Origin: Bordetella parapertussis
Lineage (GTDB): Bacteria; Pseudomonadota; Gammaproteobacteria; Burkholderiales; SG8-41
Assembly: GCA_945864585.1 (NCBI GenBank)
Contig: CAMBCF010000048.1
Coordinates: 1-36,214 of the forward strand
Reading direction: 5' to 3'
Length of the DNA stretch: 36,214 nt
Made by a program: the position numbers and the translations under genes. Below the pieces are notes generated by a model. That model ran no database searches. It was not told the DNA's origin and was given only the letters and a program-made list of their open reading frames with translations. Below are positions 5,169-32,107 of this stretch, piece after piece (the first letter of the stretch is position 1; each line of letters opens with the position of its first letter).

Positions 5169-6149
5169 ATGAAAGTCAGTTTTTCAGCGCGTGTTTCAAC
5201 AATGGTGGTGCTGGCCGTCGCGTGCAGCATGGTTGCAGCACAAGACTATCCCACGAAACAAATCTCGTTGGCAGTGCCGTTTGCCGCGGGCGGACCCACG
5301 GACACGCTCGCGCGCAACCTGGCGGTGGCGATGACCCAGCAACTCAAACAGCAGTTGATCATCGAAAACGTCGCGGGAGCTGGCGGCACCATAGCCGCCA
5401 ACCGCGTAGCGAAAGCCAAGCCCGATGGCTACAGCCTTTTGATCGCACATATCGGTATGGCTACGGCGCCGGCGCTGTATCGCAAGCTGCCGTACAACCC
5501 GCTGACCGATTACGAATACATTGGCCAGGTCGCGGACGTGCCGATGACGCTGATCGCCAGGACCGGCTTGCCGCCGGACAACCTGAAGGAACTGGTCGCC
5601 TACGTCAAGAAAAACAAGGAAAAGCTTAATTTGGGCAACGCCGGTTTGGGCGCGGCGTCGCATTTATGCGGGCTGCTGTTCATGTCGCGCATCGCGGCCG
5701 ACATTCAGACCATCCCGTACAACGGCACGGCGCCTGCGATGATGGCCTTGATAGGCGGTCAGATCGATTTGATGTGCGACCAGACCACCAACACCACCGC
5801 GCAAATCAAGTCCGGTCGCGTCAAAGTGTACGGCACCACGACCAAAACGCGCGTACCATCGCTGTCGATGGTGCCCACGCTCGCCGAGCAGGGCATGAAG
5901 GATTTCGATGTATCGGTTTGGCACGGTATCTACGCGCCCAAAGGCACGCCCAAGCCGGTGATCGATAAACTGGTGGCGGCGCTGCAAGCGTCGGTGCAGG
6001 ATGCACAGTTCAAGTCGCGCATCGCGGAGCTCGGCGCGCAAGCGGTGAGCAAGGACAAGGCCACACCGGAGTCGCTCGCCAAACACCTCAAGGCTGAAAT
6101 CGACAAATGGGGTCCGATTATCAAGAACGCGGGCGTATATGCTGACTGA
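5169..6149 (+). CDS. Bug/TctC-family periplasmic solute receptor
   Basis: A complete receptor of 326 residues. The signal peptide runs to about residue 24 (…VLAVACSMVAAQ) and the mature protein begins DYPTKQISLAVPFAAGGPTD, the family entrance. Further landmarks are NVAGAGGTIAANRVAKAKPDGY, NLGNAGLGAASHL, TIPYNGTAPAMMALIGGQID and the C-terminal EIDKWGPIIKNAGVYAD. An AAAAGGAGCGC site precedes the ATG. It stands alone: an AT-rich 160-base gap lies upstream and an intrinsic terminator downstream, so it is probably monocistronic. No TctA/TctB membrane genes are nearby. The residue after the cleft contains Cys-Asp (IDLMCDQTTNT), where many paralogues have small hydrophobics; the ligand cannot be predicted. 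Confidence 0.95.
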   Translation: MKVSFSARVSTMVVLAVACSMVAAQDYPTKQISLAVPFAAGGPTDTLARNLAVAMTQQLKQQLIIENVAGAGGTIAANRVAKAKPDGYSLLIAHIGMATAPALYRKLPYNPLTDYEYIGQVADVPMTLIARTGLPPDNLKELVAYVKKNKEKLNLGNAGLGAASHLCGLLFMSRIAADIQTIPYNGTAPAMMALIGGQIDLMCDQTTNTTAQIKSGRVKVYGTTTKTRVPSLSMVPTLAEQGMKDFDVSVWHGIYAPKGTPKPVIDKLVAALQASVQDAQFKSRIAELGAQAVSKDKATPESLAKHLKAEIDKWGPIIKNAGVYAD

Positions 6150-12275: not shown

Positions 12276-13235
12276 ATGAAGCAAATTCTTGCAGGTTTGT
12301 TTTTTACGCTGCCGCTCACGGTGGCGGCACAGGACTACCCAACCAAATCCATCCGCGTGCTGGTGTCCTTCGCGCCCGGCGGCGTGGTGGATACCTCGAC
12401 GCGTATTGTCACCGGCAAGATTGCCGAGGCGCTGGGCTGGCAATTCGTGGTGGATAACCGTCCGGGGGCCAACGGCTTTATCGGCGCAACTGCGGCGGCG
12501 AAGGGGAACCCCGACGGTTACACCGTGCTGTCGGCGCACACCGGTGAATTTGCGGTGAACCCGGTGATGTTCAAGACCCTGCCCTACGATCCCGAGAAAT
12601 CGTTCGTGCCGGTCATCATGCTGAGCGATGCGCCGATGCTGATCGTGGTGAATGCGCAGTCGCCGATCAACAGCATCAAGGAGTTGATCGCTGCGGCGCG
12701 CGCCAAACCGGGTGCAGTCACCTTCGGTTCACCCGGTACGGGATCGGTGAATCACATGGCAAGCGAATGGCTGGCCGCTGCGGCGGGCGTAAAAATGCTG
12801 CATGTGCCGTACAAGGGCGGCGCACCGGCGGTGGTGGCAGTAGCGACCAATGATGTGATATTCACCATCGCCGGCATGCCCGGCGTGTCGCCGCATCTGC
12901 AGGGTAAGCGCGTCAAGGTGCTGGGCATCACCACTGCCAAGCGTTCGCCGCTGGTGCCCGACTACGCCACGGCGCAGGAGATGGGCGTGGCCGGCGTTGA
13001 TGCGTCGATCTGGGTGGGCTTTTTTGTGCCTACGGGTACGCCTGCGGCGATCATCAACAAGCTCTATGCCGCGTCGGCAGACGCCTTGAAGCGCCCCGAA
13101 GTCAAAGAGCGTCTGGCCGTGGTGGGCGGCGCTGAAGCGGTGGCGACAGCGAGCGCAGCGTTTAAAATTCGCATTAACAGTGATATCAAACGCTACAACA
13201 AAGTAGCACAACAAGTTGGCATCAAGCCAGAGTGA
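12276..13235 (+). CDS. Bug/TctC-family periplasmic solute receptor
   Basis: A complete receptor of 319 residues. A short signal peptide (MKQILAGLFFTLPLTVAAQ) leads to DYPTKSIRVLVSFAPGGVVD. Then come NRPGANGFIGATAAAKGNPDGY, TFGSPGTGSVNHMASEWL, LHVPYKGGAPAVVAVATND and the C-terminal DIKRYNKVAQQVGIKPE. A GTCGGAGAAA site stands before the ATG. It is on the same strand and downstream of the hydroxylase/UbiD genes, the usual place for a receptor dedicated to the operon's substrate, although a repeat-rich gap lies between. The C-terminal GGAEAVATASAAF stretch is nearly copied by the receptor fragment at 20185. Confidence 0.95.
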   Translation: MKQILAGLFFTLPLTVAAQDYPTKSIRVLVSFAPGGVVDTSTRIVTGKIAEALGWQFVVDNRPGANGFIGATAAAKGNPDGYTVLSAHTGEFAVNPVMFKTLPYDPEKSFVPVIMLSDAPMLIVVNAQSPINSIKELIAAARAKPGAVTFGSPGTGSVNHMASEWLAAAAGVKMLHVPYKGGAPAVVAVATNDVIFTIAGMPGVSPHLQGKRVKVLGITTAKRSPLVPDYATAQEMGVAGVDASIWVGFFVPTGTPAAIINKLYAASADALKRPEVKERLAVVGGAEAVATASAAFKIRINSDIKRYNKVAQQVGIKPE

Positions 13236-16293: not shown

Positions 16294-16952
16294 TTACTTT
16301 TTGCTTGGCGATGTCAACGTTCGGGGTAACGTCAATCGTGCTTCCAGGCCGCCCGCGGCCCGGTTATTGAGACGCAAGCTGCCGCCATGAATCTCGGAGA
16401 CGCTTCGGGCTATAGTCAAACCCAGTCCAGTGCCTCCGCTGTCACGGTTGCGCGAGCCTTCTACACGATGGAAAGGCTCGAACACTTTTGCGCATCGTCG
16501 AGCAACTCGGAACGCAGACGCAAGCGTGTGATCGGCGTCTTCAGATCATGTGACATCGCGGCCAGCACACGCGTGCGATCACGCAGGTAACCCGCAAGAC
16601 GGGACTGCATGGTGTTGAACGCACGCGCGGCACGCACCACTTCGAACGGCCCTGATTCCTGCAGTGGGGGACGGTTAATGTTTTTTCCCAGTTCCTCAGC
16701 GGCTTCGGCCAGTGTATTGAGCGGGCGTATGGCCCAACGCACCGCAATCAGCGATACCAGCACGACTGCCGTCAACAGTAACGCAATGCTGATCAGCAAG
16801 CGGTAGGGCCAGCTTGCAGTGGCTTGCGCAATCAGTTCCCCGCGATCATGGATATGCACCGCAAAGCTCAATAGCTGCGCGATAATCAGGCCGCCGAGCA
16901 GCACCAGCACCAGCACCAGGCGGCTAAAGACAAAGCGGGGAAGCAGGTTCAT
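16294..16952 (-). pseudogene. Sensor histidine kinase with most of the ATPase domain deleted
   Basis: The 5' part reads as the front of an EnvZ/OmpR-type sensor kinase: two membrane segments (about residues 6-30 and 46-68), HAMP (RWAIRPLNTLAEAAEELGKNI) and the phospho-acceptor H-box AAMSHDLKTPITRLRLRSELL. Immediately after LLDDAQ the frame fails. In the next frame the sequence continues VFEPFHRVEGSRNRDSGG and TGLGLTIARSVSEIHGG, the F and G2 boxes at the very end of the ATPase domain. About 90 residues, including the N and G1 boxes, are missing and the join (near 16480-16490) is out of frame, so the product cannot phosphorylate. A frame ending LLTVTSAQ stops in a four-base overlap with the kinase ATG, possibly the last codons of a lost response regulator. 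Confidence 0.85.
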
Positions 16953-18994: not shown

Positions 18995-19387
18995 TCACGC
19001 GATGACTTGGCCAAAACCAATATCGTGGCCATCGAGGTCTTGCGCGCCAAATTCCCGGCATCCATAAGGCTGATCGCAAAGCCCGTAATCAATCCTGGCA
19101 TTTCTGGCAACAAATTCGGCATGTAGCGCTTCCACGTCCGACACCCAAAAGTAGATGTTCCAGAGTTTGTCGCAGACTGTCCAGTGCGGGACCACCTGTT
19201 TCGGGTTATCGGCCTGTTTGAGCATCACATACATCTTGTCGCGGCACAGAATTACAAACGACGGCGGCTCGCCCCAAAAGCGTTCATATTCAAAACCCAT
19301 CGCGTCGCGATAGTGATTTGCCGCCTTCACCACATCTCTTACCAGAAGTACCGGCGCGCTGGCGGTCAGTTTGGCAGTGGTATTCAT
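18995..19387 (-). CDS. Glyoxalase/bleomycin-resistance-fold (VOC) protein
   Basis: A 130-residue single-module protein of the vicinal oxygen chelate superfamily. LTASAPVLLVRDVVKAANHYRDAMGFEYE is the usual first beta-alpha-beta unit, PSFVILCRDKMYVML the second, and VSDVEALHAEFVARNARI then FGAQDLDGHDIGFGQ the C-terminal unit. Members act as glyoxalases, dioxygenases or drug-binding proteins. In the second half a glutamate-like ligand position is occupied by D in DLDGHDIGF. The ATG at 19387 follows GAGGACAG; the frame stays open further upstream into a repeat, which is not credible. Substrate unknown. Confidence 0.85.
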   Translation of the reverse strand: MNTTAKLTASAPVLLVRDVVKAANHYRDAMGFEYERFWGEPPSFVILCRDKMYVMLKQADNPKQVVPHWTVCDKLWNIYFWVSDVEALHAEFVARNARIDYGLCDQPYGCREFGAQDLDGHDIGFGQVIA

Positions 19388-19407
19388 TTTTCTGTCCTCG
19401 ACTGGTT

Positions 19408-19445
19408 GCAAGTGTAGACTGTAAGGCGCGCAGCGTATATTACGC
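19408..19445 (+). repeat. Dispersed repeat, copy A (partner at 20266)
   Basis: GCAAGTGTAGACTGTAAGGC and what follows to ATTACGC recur at 20266-20300 with three substitutions and a two-base gap. The two copies are in the same orientation and bracket the Phd/VapC module and the receptor fragment. Confidence 0.65.
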
Positions 19446-19568
19446 ATAAGTGTCTGTTTTTGTTATTTTTTAATACTTCCATGGCTATGCAGTTGCAATC
19501 GGAAAGATGAGTGCTTGACGAAAAGGTTAGACCAGACCAGACTAACTTCTTTAAAGAGTAGTCAAGTC

Positions 19569-19814
19569 ATGCAAATCACCAATATCTCCGAGGCCAAAAG
19601 CAGCCTTTCATCGCTGGTCGCCCAAGTCGAAAAGGGTCGCAAAATCATCATCGGCAGAGCAGGCAAGCCGGTGGCCATGCTCGTGCCTTATCGCACGGAT
19701 GTCTCCCCGCGCAAGCTTGGCGGAACCTGGACCGGCAAGGTCAAGATCGCGGACGATTTTGACGTGCTGCCGCCTGAACTCGCGGAAGCGTTTTACGGCA
19801 AGCCCGCGCGATGA
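19569..19814 (+). CDS. Phd/YefM-family antitoxin
   Basis: An 81-residue antitoxin. MQITNISEAKSSLSSLVAQVEKGRKIIIGRAGKPVAMLVPY is the standard Phd/YefM N-terminal DNA-binding fold, and the C-terminal part (VKIADDFDVLPPELAEAFYGK) is the usual toxin-neutralising tail found with PIN-domain toxins. The ATG at 19569 matches the family start; the frame is open earlier but with no similarity. It overlaps the toxin gene by ATGA at 19811-19814, the normal arrangement, and should repress its own operon. Confidence 0.9.
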   Translation: MQITNISEAKSSLSSLVAQVEKGRKIIIGRAGKPVAMLVPYRTDVSPRKLGGTWTGKVKIADDFDVLPPELAEAFYGKPAR

Positions 19815-20188
19815 ATTTATTGCTGGATACGCACACCCTTATATGGGCGCTTGAGGGTAATCCGGCTTTATCTGCGGCGGCGCGTGACGCCATTGTCGAT
19901 GGCAACAACATCGTTTTCGTGAGCGCGGTTTCGGTGTGGGAAATCTCCATCAAGAAAGCGCTCGGTAAGCTGGAAGCGCCCGACACGCTGCTCGAAGAAA
20001 TTGTGCGCCATCGATTTACGCCACTGGAAATCACACTGGAACACGGCGACCGCGCAGGTAAATTACCGCCGATACACATGGACCCGTTCGACCGTGTACT
20101 GATCGCGCAGACGCAATCGGAGCAACTCACGCTGGTTACGCGTGATGTGGAGATTCAAAAGTATCAAGTGCAATATCTGGCAGCGTAG
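19811..20188 (+). CDS. vapC: VapC-type PIN-domain ribonuclease toxin
   Basis: A 125-residue PIN-domain toxin. Metal-binding acidic residues are in place: D6 (LLDTHTLIWAL), E44 (VSVWEISIKKALGKL), D91/D94 (MDPFDRVLIAQ) and D112 (LVTRD). The sequence belongs to the VapC group usually encoded behind Phd-like antitoxins. It would cleave RNA (often tRNA) when free of antitoxin. All catalytic residues are present, so it appears functional. The stop codon abuts a fragment of a Bug receptor gene, suggesting the pair was inserted there or that the receptor was deleted up to it. Confidence 0.92.
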   Translation: MNLLLDTHTLIWALEGNPALSAAARDAIVDGNNIVFVSAVSVWEISIKKALGKLEAPDTLLEEIVRHRFTPLEITLEHGDRAGKLPPIHMDPFDRVLIAQTQSEQLTLVTRDVEIQKYQVQYLAA

Positions 20189-20270
20189 GTGGCGCCGAGG
20201 CCGTGGCAACAGCGGGCGCCGCGTTCAACACGCGTATCGCCATCGATATCGAGCGCTACAACAAAGCAAG
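20185..20270 (+). pseudogene. 3' fragment of a Bug/TctC receptor gene
   Basis: Reading on from the last codons of vapC in another frame gives VGGAEAVATAGAAFNTRIA and then IDIERYNKAS. It matches the C-terminus of the receptor at 12276 (VGGAEAVATASAAFKIRIN…DIKRYNKVA). Only about 28 codons remain and the very end is replaced by a dispersed repeat. The rest of the gene is absent. It marks a break point of the toxin-antitoxin module. Confidence 0.8.
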
Positions 20271-20300
20271 TTTAGCCTGTAAGGAGCGCAGCGTATTACG
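20266..20300 (+). repeat. Dispersed repeat, copy B (partner at 19408)
   Basis: GCAAGTTTAGCCTGTAAGGA followed by GCGCAGCGTATTACG is the second copy of the repeat at 19408-19445, same orientation. It replaces the last codons of the receptor fragment. Confidence 0.65.
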
Positions 20301-20307
20301 GGTTTAC

Positions 20308-21285
20308 TCACGCGTGCGCACCCGACACCCGCACGCGCGGATCGAGCGCCGTGCACAGAATATTAACCAGCATATTAATCATGATGAACAGAAAAACGAT
20401 AATCATCAGATACGCCACTATCACCGGCCGATCCAGCACATTGATCGAATCGATCAGCAGCTTGCCCATGCCCGGCCACGCGAAAACTGTTTCGGTAATA
20501 ATGGCGAAAGCGATCAGCGAGCCGAATTCCAGCCCGACCACGGTGACGATGGGGATCAGAATGTTTTTCAGCACATGCACCGACACCACGCGTTTTTCCG
20601 GCACGCCTTTGGCGCGCGCGGCGCGCACATAGTCCTGCACCATCGCCTCGCGCGTGCCGGCGCGCGTGAGGCGGATCAGCAGTGATAATTTGAACAGCGC
20701 GAGATTGGTTGCGGGCATCAGCAGGTGCCTCAGGCCGTCCCATGTCAAAAAGCTCAGCTGCAGCCCCAGCACCTCGACGGTTTCGCCGCGCCCGGTCGAA
20801 GGCAGCCAGCCCAGCCATACCGAAAAAATCACGATCAGCATCAATCCCACCCAGAACGTCGGCAGCGGAAAGCCGAGGATCGATCCCGCCATGATGCTTT
20901 TCGCGGCAAAAGAATCGGGCTTGAGTCCTGCCCACAAGCCCAGCGGCAGGCCGATGACGATGGCGATAATCATTGCGGTCAGTGCCAGCTCAACGGTGGC
21001 GGGCATGCGCTGGAGTATCAGTTGCATCGCCGGTATGTTGGAGGCGAACGATCGACCGAGGTCGCCGGTGAATGCCGCACTCAGAAAACTCCAGTACTGC
21101 ACCCACACCAGCCTGTCGAGACCGAGAGACGCGGTAACACGCGCGATTTCCGTCTGATCGGCCTGCGGGTTGATCAGAATATCCACCGGGTTGCCGATGG
21201 CGTAGACACCTACGAATACCAGCGCGGACATGAGCAAAAGTGCTAACAGGCTTTGGGCCAGGCGGCGCAGGATGAAGGCGAGCAT
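20308..21285 (-). CDS. Dipeptide/oligopeptide ABC transporter permease, DppB/OppB type
   Basis: A complete inner-membrane permease of 325 residues with about six membrane spans. It begins MLAFILRRLAQSLLALLLMS, the typical DppB opening, and has DLGRSFASNIPAMQLILQRMPATVELAL before the permease core. The ABC-contacting EAA loop reads EAMVQDYVRAARAKGVPEKRV. The end ALDPRVRVSGA is normal for the family. Upstream on the same strand, now separated by other genes, are two broken binding-protein genes of the matching SBP_bac_5 family. The second permease (DppC) and ATPases that should follow are missing; downstream are only a receptor fragment and vapC. So it is probably an orphan that can work only if partners exist elsewhere. 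The start at 21285 has a weak AAAGAA site. Confidence 0.92.
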   Translation of the reverse strand: MLAFILRRLAQSLLALLLMSALVFVGVYAIGNPVDILINPQADQTEIARVTASLGLDRLVWVQYWSFLSAAFTGDLGRSFASNIPAMQLILQRMPATVELALTAMIIAIVIGLPLGLWAGLKPDSFAAKSIMAGSILGFPLPTFWVGLMLIVIFSVWLGWLPSTGRGETVEVLGLQLSFLTWDGLRHLLMPATNLALFKLSLLIRLTRAGTREAMVQDYVRAARAKGVPEKRVVSVHVLKNILIPIVTVVGLEFGSLIAFAIITETVFAWPGMGKLLIDSINVLDRPVIVAYLMIIVFLFIMINMLVNILCTALDPRVRVSGAHA

Positions 21286-22671: not shown

Positions 22672-22974
22672 CTAATCGGCGCGCGCAGGTTTTGCGCGCG
22701 TCCGTGTTGAGCGTGTAGTTAGACCTTTCACGACGATCTTGCGCAATTCATTGTTGATTCGAGTTTGATAGCCACTGCCTTGGGCTCGAAAAAAAGCGAT
22801 AACGTCCGAATCGAGGCGCACGGTAGTAAGTACTTTAGTCGGTGCTTTCTGCGGACCGCGACCGCGCTTAAGGATCGGTGGTCCTAGCATTTGTTCGGAC
22901 CAGGGAGGGTTATCGGGGTCTACCCGCTTACTTGAAGTGGTTCTTGGCGACTTCAAGGTAATAGCGTTTTTCAT
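22672..22974 (-). CDS. brnA: BrnA-family antitoxin
   Basis: A 100-residue protein. The N-terminal part VDPDNPPWSEQMLGPP is typical of BrnA, and VLTTVRLDSDVIAFFRAQGSGYQTRINNELRKIV is its ribbon-helix-helix DNA-binding domain. It neutralises BrnT and represses the operon. The gene overlaps the end of brnT by 47 bases; the ATG at 22974 gives the family N-terminus only after about 18 residues, so a later start is possible. The C-terminus is extended by an Arg/Thr-rich tail. Confidence 0.9.
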   Translation of the reverse strand: MKNAITLKSPRTTSSKRVDPDNPPWSEQMLGPPILKRGRGPQKAPTKVLTTVRLDSDVIAFFRAQGSGYQTRINNELRKIVVKGLTTRSTRTRAKPARAD

Positions 22975-23209
22975 GTTTCACCGCCTCGCGTAAGGAAATT
23001 ATGTGGGGCCCGGCACGACGTTCCGTGTACATCAGCACGGCCACTGTGCCTTCCAATAGTCCGAAGGTGACCAAACGTTTCTCACCATAAGACTGACGGA
23101 CGTCTTCACGAGTAATTGTGAAGTTATCCCAAATGACATCGCACCCTACGAAGTCGAACCCGTGATCTTTGATGTTTTCCTGCCGCTTGGTCTCGTCCCA
23201 GGTAGTCAC
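22928..23209 (-). CDS. brnT: BrnT-family ribonuclease toxin
   Basis: A 93-residue toxin of the BrnT family, a RelE-like fold that cleaves RNA. Family marks are WDETKRQENIKDHGFDFVGCDVIWDN at the start, DVRQSYGEKRLVTFGLLEGTVAVLMYTER in the middle and IISLREAVKHEKRYY near the end. Gene order brnT then brnA on one strand is the standard operon. It separates the broken binding-protein gene (23404) from the putative tail of another copy (22483), so it lies inside the remains of a peptide importer operon. Confidence 0.92.
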   Translation of the reverse strand: MTTWDETKRQENIKDHGFDFVGCDVIWDNFTITREDVRQSYGEKRLVTFGLLEGTVAVLMYTERRAGPHIISLREAVKHEKRYYLEVAKNHFK

Positions 23210-23403: not shown

Positions 23404-25028
23404 CTATTTGGGTTTGAACAAATGCGCAAACGTAAACTCATCCGTGCGCGGCGTGTAGCTGACGTCGCTGCGCATCGCCCAACTGACAATCTGATGATGC
23501 AATGGAATCAGCGGCACATCGTTCATCGCGACGGCGGTGGCTTCGCGGGCGAGGGCTTCGCGTGCCTTGGCATCCACCGAGGCGAGGGACTGGCCGATCA
23601 ACTGATCCAGTTTGGGGTTGGACGAGCGACCCCAGTTCCACGCGCCCCATGCGCGCTCCCGATTCGGCGTGGCGAGCAGCGAACGCAACGCGAGGTCGCC
23701 CGCGAAGGAGCCCCAGCCCAGCAGGGAAAAACTGGTTTCTTCCTTGCGCACGTTGCCTAGAAAGGCGTTGAGCGGCAATGCTTCGACTTTGGTTTGTATG
23801 CCGATGCGCGCGAGCATTTGCGCCACCGCTTGCAGCACTTGCTCGTCGTTGATGTAGCGGTTGTTGGGGCCGGAGAGCGTGACGTTGAAGCCATTGGGGT
23901 AGCCCGCTTCGGCCAGCAGTTTTTTTGCGCCATCGGGGTTGTGGGCTTCGGGTTTCAGTTGCGGGTTGTGGCCAAACACGCCGGGTGACACGATGTTGGC
24001 GGCGTGCACCGCGAGTTTTTCCATCACGCGCTCGGTGATGGCCGGGCGGTTGATCGCCATCGACATGGCGCGGCGCACGTGCACATCCATGAACGGATTC
24101 TTGGCGAGCGGCTTGCCGGCGCTGTCGGTGAGCCACGGCGGTTGATTACGATACTGATCGAGATGCAAAAAGATGGTGCGCCATGACACGGTATGTTCAA
24201 GTTTTAACTTATTGTTTTTTTTTATAGTTTTTCTCTGTCCGCGGGGGGGCACGTGTTCGATCACATCGAGCTCGCCGGAGAGCAGTGCGGCGGTACGCAC
24301 CGGGTCGGTGGGGATGATGCGCAGCGTGAGTTTTTCCCACGCCGGACGCCCGCCCAATAGTTGTCGTTGCGCAGGTACTCGACACGGTCACCGCGCGCAA
24401 AGCGCACGAATTTGTAGGGCCCGGTGCCGATGGTTGCGCGGCCCGATTCAAAATCTTCCGGCGCGGCGTTGGCGGCGGCTTTCCGCGAAACGATCATGAT
24501 CGAATTCAAATCTTCGGGCAGCGCGCCGTAGGGGGTGGCGGTTTTCAAACGTATGGTCAGTTTGTCGACGATCTCCCTGGCGACGATGGCGCGCACGTAC
24601 GCGGCAAATCCGCCGGGACTGCCTTTGATGTTGAACGGGCGTTCGAGCGAAAAAAGCACGTCTTCGGCGGTGAGCTCCGAGCCATCATGAAATTTCACGC
24701 CGGGCCGTAGTTTAAATTCCCAGGTGGTGGCGTCCACTGCGCGCCAGGATGTAGCCAGGCCGGGAATAAGCCGCGTGCGTTCATCCGCATGCACCAGCGC
24801 GTCGAACACATGAAAGCCCACGGTTAGATTCGGCTGCGAGGCGAGAAAATGCGGATCCATGGTGGTGACGTCGGCGGACAGCCCAATGCGCAGGTCGGCG
24901 GCGTGGAGCGTGGCGCATAGCATGATGCTGAGGCATACAGGACTTAGGACTGAAAATTTAGGACTGAGTAACCTCAAGATCACCTCGTGCAATCGAGGCA
25001 TCATCACTTTCCGCCGCCTCTTGTTCAT
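23404..25028 (-). pseudogene. Peptide ABC transporter substrate-binding protein (SBP_bac_5), frameshifted
   Basis: The 5' half encodes a signal peptide and the first lobe of a DppA/OppA-like periplasmic binding protein (DLRIGLSADVTTMDPHF, LATSWRAVDATTWEFKLRPG, VKFHDGSELTAEDVLFSLER, ATIGTGPYKFVRF). At 24353-24355 the frame breaks: the expected YWGGRPAWEKL needs one more G in a G run (minus strand). The 3' half continues in the next frame to FAHLFKPK and the normal end. A second disturbed spot lies at 24220-24255, where a run of seven C and an extra AT replace the expected ADREKLKKNNK with an out-of-frame but compensated stretch. The start region carries a dispersed GGACT repeat inside the signal peptide. 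Either a decayed gene or one with homopolymer sequencing errors. Confidence 0.85.
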
Positions 25029-31264: not shown

Positions 31265-31837
31265 TTACTGCGGTTGAACTGTAATTCGATACTCGATCGA
31301 GTTTGGACTGGCGGACAAAATTTCGACCAGATAACCGGAGATAGGAACACGCCGCTCGCTCGGACCAAGGCGAATAGCGATCGTGTCAGAGGGCATGGCG
31401 ATATGATACGCGGAGCCTGAGCTGATGGTCGTTGGGCTGCCAACCGAGCGGCTGGTTCCAGAGAACTGCGTAGTGCCGCCAGACGTCGCTGCCGTACCAG
31501 ACATCGTTGCGTTGGCAGAACCTGACTGGAAGGACATAGGCGTGCGGGTCAATGTCGTTTCGTTGGACATGACCTGCACAGCTCTCCGATAGAGGACGAC
31601 TTCGCCGTTGGGCTCCACGCCAGCGAAGCGGACTTCGGAGAACCCCTCGTTTGTCTTTCTTCCCCAAATGTCAGCCTTGCCCACAACGTTCGTCAGGCTT
31701 CTTTCTCGATCGATTCGAAGTACCACGTCACCATGACCCGCCAGCAGCGCCCTGCCCAATGTTTGCTGCGTTGACGCGCTACGCTCGATTGAGCCGCAGC
31801 CTGTGAGGACGGTGATTAGCGCCAGGGCACGCCACAA
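31265..31837 (-). CDS. Uncharacterised lipoprotein
   Basis: A protein of about 190 residues with an N-terminal lipoprotein signal: LWRALALITVLTGC with lipobox LTGC. After it, TLGRALLAGHGDVVLRIDRERSLTNVVGKADIWGRK and FSEVRFAGVEPNGEVVLYRR look like a beta-rich envelope domain. A long Ser/Gly/Thr-rich linker follows (SANATMSGTAATSGGTTQFSG…), then a second small beta domain ending EYRITVQPQ. I recognise no family. The start is uncertain: TTG at 31837 gives a compact signal peptide, and the frame is open to 31993 with GTG or other codons. GC content seems lower than the neighbours, which together with the attC-like site beside it hints at transfer. Confidence 0.6.
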   Translation of the reverse strand: MWRALALITVLTGCGSIERSASTQQTLGRALLAGHGDVVLRIDRERSLTNVVGKADIWGRKTNEGFSEVRFAGVEPNGEVVLYRRAVQVMSNETTLTRTPMSFQSGSANATMSGTAATSGGTTQFSGTSRSVGSPTTISSGSAYHIAMPSDTIAIRLGPSERRVPISGYLVEILSASPNSIEYRITVQPQ

Positions 31838-32107
31838 GGGTAGGTTTATCAGATCTCCCGTTGAAGAAGGACGTGGAACACCAGATTGAATGCCTCTGGG
31901 AGCTAACGTGTAATGATCTTCCGAAAAACCAACTATTTCCTGTGTCCAGTCTACCCTCGTCAGAAAAAGCTCGCAATTCCAATGATTTATCACATGTCAT
32001 CAATGACAATAGCGTGTGATAGATTGCAGACCATACCTCAAGTCATTGAAAAACAAGGAACTTAATTACCGACATCTCGGGTGACTCAACACTCAACACT
32101 CCTGGGG
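31838..32107. other. Gap without a recognisable gene
   Basis: About 270 AT-richer bases between the lipoprotein and gltL. The lipoprotein frame extends through part of it but without recognisable content. I see no clear promoter, repeat or RNA; the short direct repeat ACTCAACACTCAACACTC at 32085-32102 is the only structure. Confidence 0.4.

Follow-up and report, generated by a model that had tools for sequence, protein, structure and literature searches.

A Phd/VapC toxin-antitoxin (TA) pair stands here between two copies of a short repeat, which lie on the same strand at 19408-19438 and 20266-20296, 858 bases apart, and agree at 28 of 31 bases. Did recombination between such repeats bring the pair to this place, as an earlier note on this DNA had proposed, or do pair and repeats share the place for another reason? 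The window, by which we mean the whole 36,214-base stretch analysed, is contig C48 of a draft genome (5.0 Mb, 234 contigs, rated 100% complete). The search covered 14 genomes of the genus, the window's own among them. The features at issue are the following; R1 is the covariance model of the repeat family and G008 is the closest relative.

18995..19396, minus strand: glyoxalase-family gene, left of REP1 (PF00903, 4.1e-8)
19406..19447, plus strand: REP1, truncated relic of a GTAG-class REP (R1, 24.7 bits; alignment with G008)
19569..19814, plus strand: Phd/YefM-family antitoxin gene, 81 aa (PF02604, 2.7e-10; TIGR01552, 1.8e-6)
19811..20188, plus strand: VapC-like PIN toxin gene, 125 aa (PF01850, 2e-14; homologue alignment)
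20185..20264, plus strand: 3' fragment, 80 bases, of a Bug (TctC-type) receptor gene (homology to the Bug C-terminus)
20264..20303, plus strand: REP2, complete GTAG-class REP with its tetranucleotide degenerate, TTAG (R1, 54.7 bits)
20303..20308, no strand: scar of the dppC deletion, between REP2 and the stop of dppB (synteny with relatives)
20308..21285, minus strand: dppB-type permease gene, intact, its partner dppC lost (PF00528, 8.7e-35)

The two TA genes are co-oriented, phd first and vapC second, and overlap by 4 bases (whole pair 19569-20188). Both products passed the curated cut-offs of the Pfam scan, Phd with 40.3 bits against 29.8 and the PIN protein with 54.7 bits against 23.6. Among 11 aligned homologues the acidic residues D6, E44, D91 and D94 of VapC were invariant and D112 nearly so, and its length of 125 aa is that of its four closest homologues. 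A search of the PDB by sequence found no relative of VapC, and a promoter scan gave no match; a single terminator-like match was at chance level. Judged by its genes and predicted proteins, phd-vapC is an ordinary chromosomal type II TA operon, the pair itself being without notable departures. In this family VapC cleaves RNA, and Phd neutralises VapC and represses the operon; by analogy, the pair presumably works in this usual way. A second TA pair, BrnT/BrnA (PF04365, 1.3e-18; PF14384, 3.4e-17), is encoded on the minus strand at 22672-23209, 2.5 kb from phd-vapC.

The module had also been described as fused to a receptor fragment. This proved wrong, since VapC has its normal length and the fragment is in another frame; the two merely abut. 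The position of the fragment was described correctly: 80 bases (20185-20264) begin at the vapC stop codon (20186-20188), which they overlap by the bases GTAG, and are followed directly by REP2. They match the C-terminus of the window's own Bug gene (12276-13235) and of its orthologues. The whole of that gene had one strong match per genome in the seven genomes tested. Identity of the fragment is 70/80 bases to both G004 and G009, 61/80 to G008 and 60/80 to the own gene, and the lower figure for the own gene than for two other species rules out a fresh copy of 12276-13235. In G001 the Bug gene ends ~20 bases from dppC; a Bug 3' end beside dppC thus occurs in the genus and can be native. The fragment may be the remnant of a native neighbour beside dppC, or foreign debris.

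The repeats belong to a dispersed family. When up to 3 mismatches were allowed, a core pattern had 24 copies in the own genome, as against zero for its reversed form, and two in the window, as against none in 100 shuffles. R1 was built from 25 copies, 24 of the own genome and one of G008. It gave at least 96 matches in the own genome, a lower bound because only 150 of 3762 candidates were scored, and its matches were present in 13 of the 14 genomes. Most of the 25 aligned copies start with GTAG, and stem variants read by eye among them (CGTAA/TTACG, CGGAA/TTCCG, TGCAA/TTGCA) change in pairs, indicating that stem pairing is kept. Many copies in the own genome are arranged as inverted doublets. 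On single-strand folding neither window copy surpassed its shuffles; the typed consensus did. Passages of PMC3733652 and PMC2817692 describe GTAG-class REPs as dispersed elements with a GTAG start, an imperfect palindrome of 20-30 bases, stem subfamilies and inverted doublets. By these sequence marks the window's family is a GTAG-class REP, an assignment made on the marks described there (PMC3733652, PMC2817692).

A Y1_Tnp gene (PF01797, 4e-8) lies between inverted REPs in G006, and seven Y1_Tnp genes of the own genome had no convincing REP of the R1 family within ~1.5 kb. Y1_Tnp is the family of the RAYTs, the REP transposases; REPINs count, with GTAG-class REPs and their doublets, among the closest known systems. 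On the own contig C121 (L221, 1066-1281) inverted REPs enclose a 71-aa ORF that has the look of a RAYT lacking its central part. By eye it resembles the Y1_Tnp protein of G006; it has no Pfam match.

The history of the spacer could be read from the relatives. G008 is syntenic with the window over the left half and homologous again at dppB, its order being complete REP1, 210 bases, phd, broken vapC, small genes, integron integrase, dppC and dppB. Its Phd protein is 95% identical to that of the window, its vapC is frameshifted and lost after ~10 codons, and its glyoxalase gene is deleted except for the first bases. REP2 (there is no second full REP) and the Bug fragment are both missing from the G008 version of the locus. 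The 210 bases are absent from the window, where the gap ends inside REP1, whose 3' half is gone; the difference was called a loss in the window because REP1 of G008 fits the consensus and that of the window does not. At the other side similarity to G008 begins again at 20306, three bases past the end of the REP2 match, and REP2 therefore sits on the scar of the dppC deletion. dppB was found in 11 relatives, with dppC adjoining it in all 11, and a search of the own genome found no dppC orthologue, the best match being 38% identical. As read from these alignments, REP1 and REP2 each mark the edge of a loss, one of 210 bases and one of dppC. The differences between G008 and the window thus indicate that the spacer was rearranged several times in the two sisters, with REPs at two edges.

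The pair is also found away from REPs. G001 carries an intact phd-vapC at another locus (79.5% over 659 bases), with no REP of the R1 family within the 5 kb fetched; the module thus occurs without the REPs. G013 has a homologous phd and a cut vapC at a third genomic place. In G010 and G012, which lack the pair at this spacer, no REP of the R1 family was found there. Same-orientation repeats do, then, flank the pair as the earlier note had it, with the 5' copy only a truncated relic, but they do not delimit a mobile cassette, because in G008 and G001 the ends of the module differ from the REPs. In the suggested search for the locus without vapC in relatives, G008 showed phd with a broken vapC, and there, too, the REPs are not the module's ends.

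Several further features were noted in and around these spacers. The dppC-side spacer of G008 has a weak R1 match (L106, 5850-5892, 15.3 bits), and a REP-like palindrome of another kind (GTAGGGCGG type, by eye) lies in or near the dppC spacer of G010 (L119, ~5740-5765) and G012 (L108, ~5330-5360). In the window the dppA-type binding protein (23404-25028, minus strand) consists of two overlapping frames, a frameshift, and the fetched G008 stretch is open; with dppC gone and this gene frameshifted, the window's dpp transporter looks decayed. A sensor kinase (16461-16952, minus strand) ends early in HisKA, and the G008 gene is interrupted by ~0.4 kb. The integron of G008 (L106, 5937-9165) comprises an integrase (TIGR02249, 470 bits against a cut-off of 265) and small genes, one DUF6817 and one cupin-like, behind the orphan phd. 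An integron integrase above the cut-off is also present on the own contig C21, and positions 31903-32079 of the window, beside the ORF 31265-31993, are 79.7% like the start of the G008 integron integrase region, possibly an integron relic. Integron cassettes can carry TA genes. The window pair itself is unlikely to be such a cassette: there is no integrase at the spot, and the G008 integron stands beyond phd. No attC was seen by eye at the pair.

Whether the repeat also stands beside other TA pairs was assessed by counting. With PIN and Phd genes only, 3 of 38 loci lay within 1 kb of a REP, this locus included, as against ~1.3 expected, and this distance test in the own genome gave no clear excess. 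With all TA families, pairs stood beside REPs in at least 4 of 31 regions of the own genome, not counting this locus, as compared with 1 of 40 controls (p 0.11), and in at least 7 of 41 regions of relatives as compared with 0 of 40 (p 0.006). Pooled, at least 11 of 72 REP regions carried pairs, against 1 of 80 (p 0.001) or 2 of 80 (p 0.005) control regions, the second control pair being that of L342, where a ribbon-helix-helix-looking protein has no Pfam match. Among the families listed, a harsher count that took L284 and L312, which are one orthologous site, once and dropped C34 gave 9/71 against 1-2/80 (p 0.005-0.017). Without L216, L283 and L293, three of the relatives' 41 regions that were already known when the set was compiled, the figures were 6/38 against 0/40 (p 0.011, among the families listed). 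The excess was weaker per intergenic gap (11/79 against 1-2/53, p 0.015-0.048, again among the families listed). The search suggested by the earlier note thus did find the repeat beside other TA pairs, and the note's interpretation is supported in part. Numerous families are represented among the pairs, some of which stand to one side of the REP and some to the other:

Own genome: higBA (C121); hicA with a HicB-like gene (C23); ribbon-helix-helix/PIN (C30); DUF433/DUF5615 (C34), which we take to be a TA pair
G008: FitA-like/PIN (same site in G011); MazE-like/PIN
Other relatives: BrnT/BrnA-like (G009); HigB-like/HTH (G012)
G013: Phd/PIN; HI1420-type antidote with a Gp49-like partner

For these counts the own REP regions were taken from the 34 clusters of stronger matches (at least 38.5 bits) among 68 clusters, which without this locus left 33 clusters in 31 regions. 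The relatives' 41 regions came from ten genomes, among the matches listed and with more than ~7 kb of contig ahead of the REP; the corresponding G008 locus was excluded. Controls were 40 random regions of the own genome, of 60 drawn, and 40 offset regions from the contigs that carry the relatives' REPs, L216 being without a control of its own. ORFs coding for 55-175 aa that passed a coding-score cut (78, 65, 88 and 68 proteins in the four sets) were scanned against Pfam. The families listed were the best 25 of 35, 25 of 27, 25 of 43 and 20 of 20, so that unlisted pairs are possible, mostly on the REP side. Matches were placed on ORFs by eye, and 18 candidate TA proteins, with further ones, were checked singly; the C30 antitoxin, the HicB-like protein and the L317 toxin are below the Pfam cut-offs.

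Across the genus some intergenic sites are common to REPs and TA pairs. Three sites were comparable between genomes, their junctions being read by eye. On the own contig C121, higBA stands between two same-strand REPs, one of them in a doublet whose spacer has the opposite direction, and G008 has one doublet only at this site. The own contig C125 has a REP doublet where G008 and G011 carry a FitA-like/PIN pair and a REP of another stem type, and G010 has a REP doublet where G012 carries a REP and a HigB-like/HTH pair. At these last two sites the REPs are different copies, and what is shared is therefore the site and not the element. Gene-sized REP brackets (gaps of ~0.4-2.5 kb, by eye) numbered at least nine in five genomes among the matches listed. 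Three of those nine enclose TA pairs (this locus, higBA on C121 and the BrnT/BrnA-like pair of G009 C34), one a Y1_Tnp gene, and the remaining five genes of other or unknown kind. No case was found of a TA unit moved by REP-REP recombination, the nearest being higBA on C121.

We consider it probable that phd-vapC is an ordinary TA operon in a highly variable spacer between Bug and dpp genes, that its direct repeats are independent REP copies, and that REPs and TA pairs meet at shared spots of turnover. The palindromes would be places of DNA breakage or slippage, or would simply be tolerated in expendable spacers; REPs, TA pairs, integron cassettes and gene fragments would collect at such spacers and get lost, and the Bug piece would be the debris of one such event. 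Pure coincidence is opposed by the TA excess beside REPs (at least 11/72 against 1-2/80), which is unexpected from chance alone. Sites shared by different REP copies led us to prefer a common niche over a REP-borne cassette. Insertion or exchange of phd-vapC by homologous recombination between dispersed REPs, the view of the earlier note, would account for the two same-strand REPs around the pair and for the bracketed higBA and BrnT/BrnA-like pairs, and C121 higBA comes close to what REP-mediated insertion predicts and counts against the common niche. Such recombination nevertheless seems improbable as the origin of this locus: 210 bases of other DNA separate REP1 from phd in G008, the G001 pair has no REP within the 5 kb fetched, G010 and G012 lack an R1-family REP as well as the pair at the spacer, and five of the nine brackets enclose other or unknown genes. 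The junctions in G008 and G001 and the dppC loss at REP2 thus speak against exchange by dispersed-repeat recombination here, while the wider REP-TA excess favours the broader idea of a link. We would give no greater credence to a joint arrival of vapC, Bug piece and REP2 in a single foreign tract, with the Bug piece coming from a gene that flanked it in the donor. The fragment is indeed nearer to the Bug genes of G004 and G009 than to those of the window and G008, and G008 lacks both the fragment and REP2; however, phd was already here in the ancestor shared with G008, the Bug end ~20 bases from dppC in G001 allows a native origin, and 80 bases are too few for a tree.

A little more weight, though still as an unlikely account, falls to the idea that the RAYT transposase or REP recombination makes REP and REP-doublet sites preferred points of TA landing and exchange. 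In its broad form, which we hold to be equally doubtful, TA pairs of unrelated families (VapBC, HigBA, HicBA, BrnTA, Phd/VapC) would exchange at REP sites, replacing or splitting doublets, in this betaproteobacterial genus. The TA excess and the Y1_Tnp gene that inverted REPs enclose in G006 agree with it, but the pairs lie on either side of the REPs, the REP copies differ at two of the three comparable sites, the seven own Y1_Tnp genes have no convincing R1-family REP nearby, and the excess is weaker per intergenic gap. That the junctions arose by assembly error at REP repeats, which a draft of 234 contigs might suggest, is very improbable, for the REPs are short (~40 bases), both flanks are syntenic with G008, and the search of a genome rated 100% complete found no dppC orthologue elsewhere.

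It has long been asked how small TA operons, which encode no transposase themselves, move. The locus itself combines a TA pair and a repeat that are each of a familiar type, as are all its parts, and the more useful outcome is a countable association of REP palindromes with TA pairs in the genus. Spacers that hold a REP doublet in one sister genome and a TA pair in another form a natural series for the question whether REP sites are involved. If REP sites were TA exchange points, TA genes would in general spread and be lost by way of breaks made by RAYT or of REP recombination. Among the titles listed for REPs or REPINs with TA genes none reports a link, which is weak evidence of novelty with most subscription papers outside the search, and a search on intergenic insertion hotspots of TA genes found nothing. 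Words beginning 'toxin' do not occur in the main texts of PMC3733652 and PMC2817692.

Compared with known systems, the window's repeat family shares with GTAG-class REPs and doublets, as far as the passages cited describe them, the GTAG tag, paired stem changes, dispersal and inverted doublets. The flanked Y1_Tnp gene of G006 is a candidate for a RAYT gene linked to these REPs, with none convincing in the own genome. Like integron cassettes with TA genes, the G008 locus has an integron integrase and small genes behind phd; unlike them, its phd runs against those small genes and lies beyond them. The window pair is like other Phd/VapC (PIN) type II modules in gene order, 4-base overlap, PIN acidic residues and normal length.
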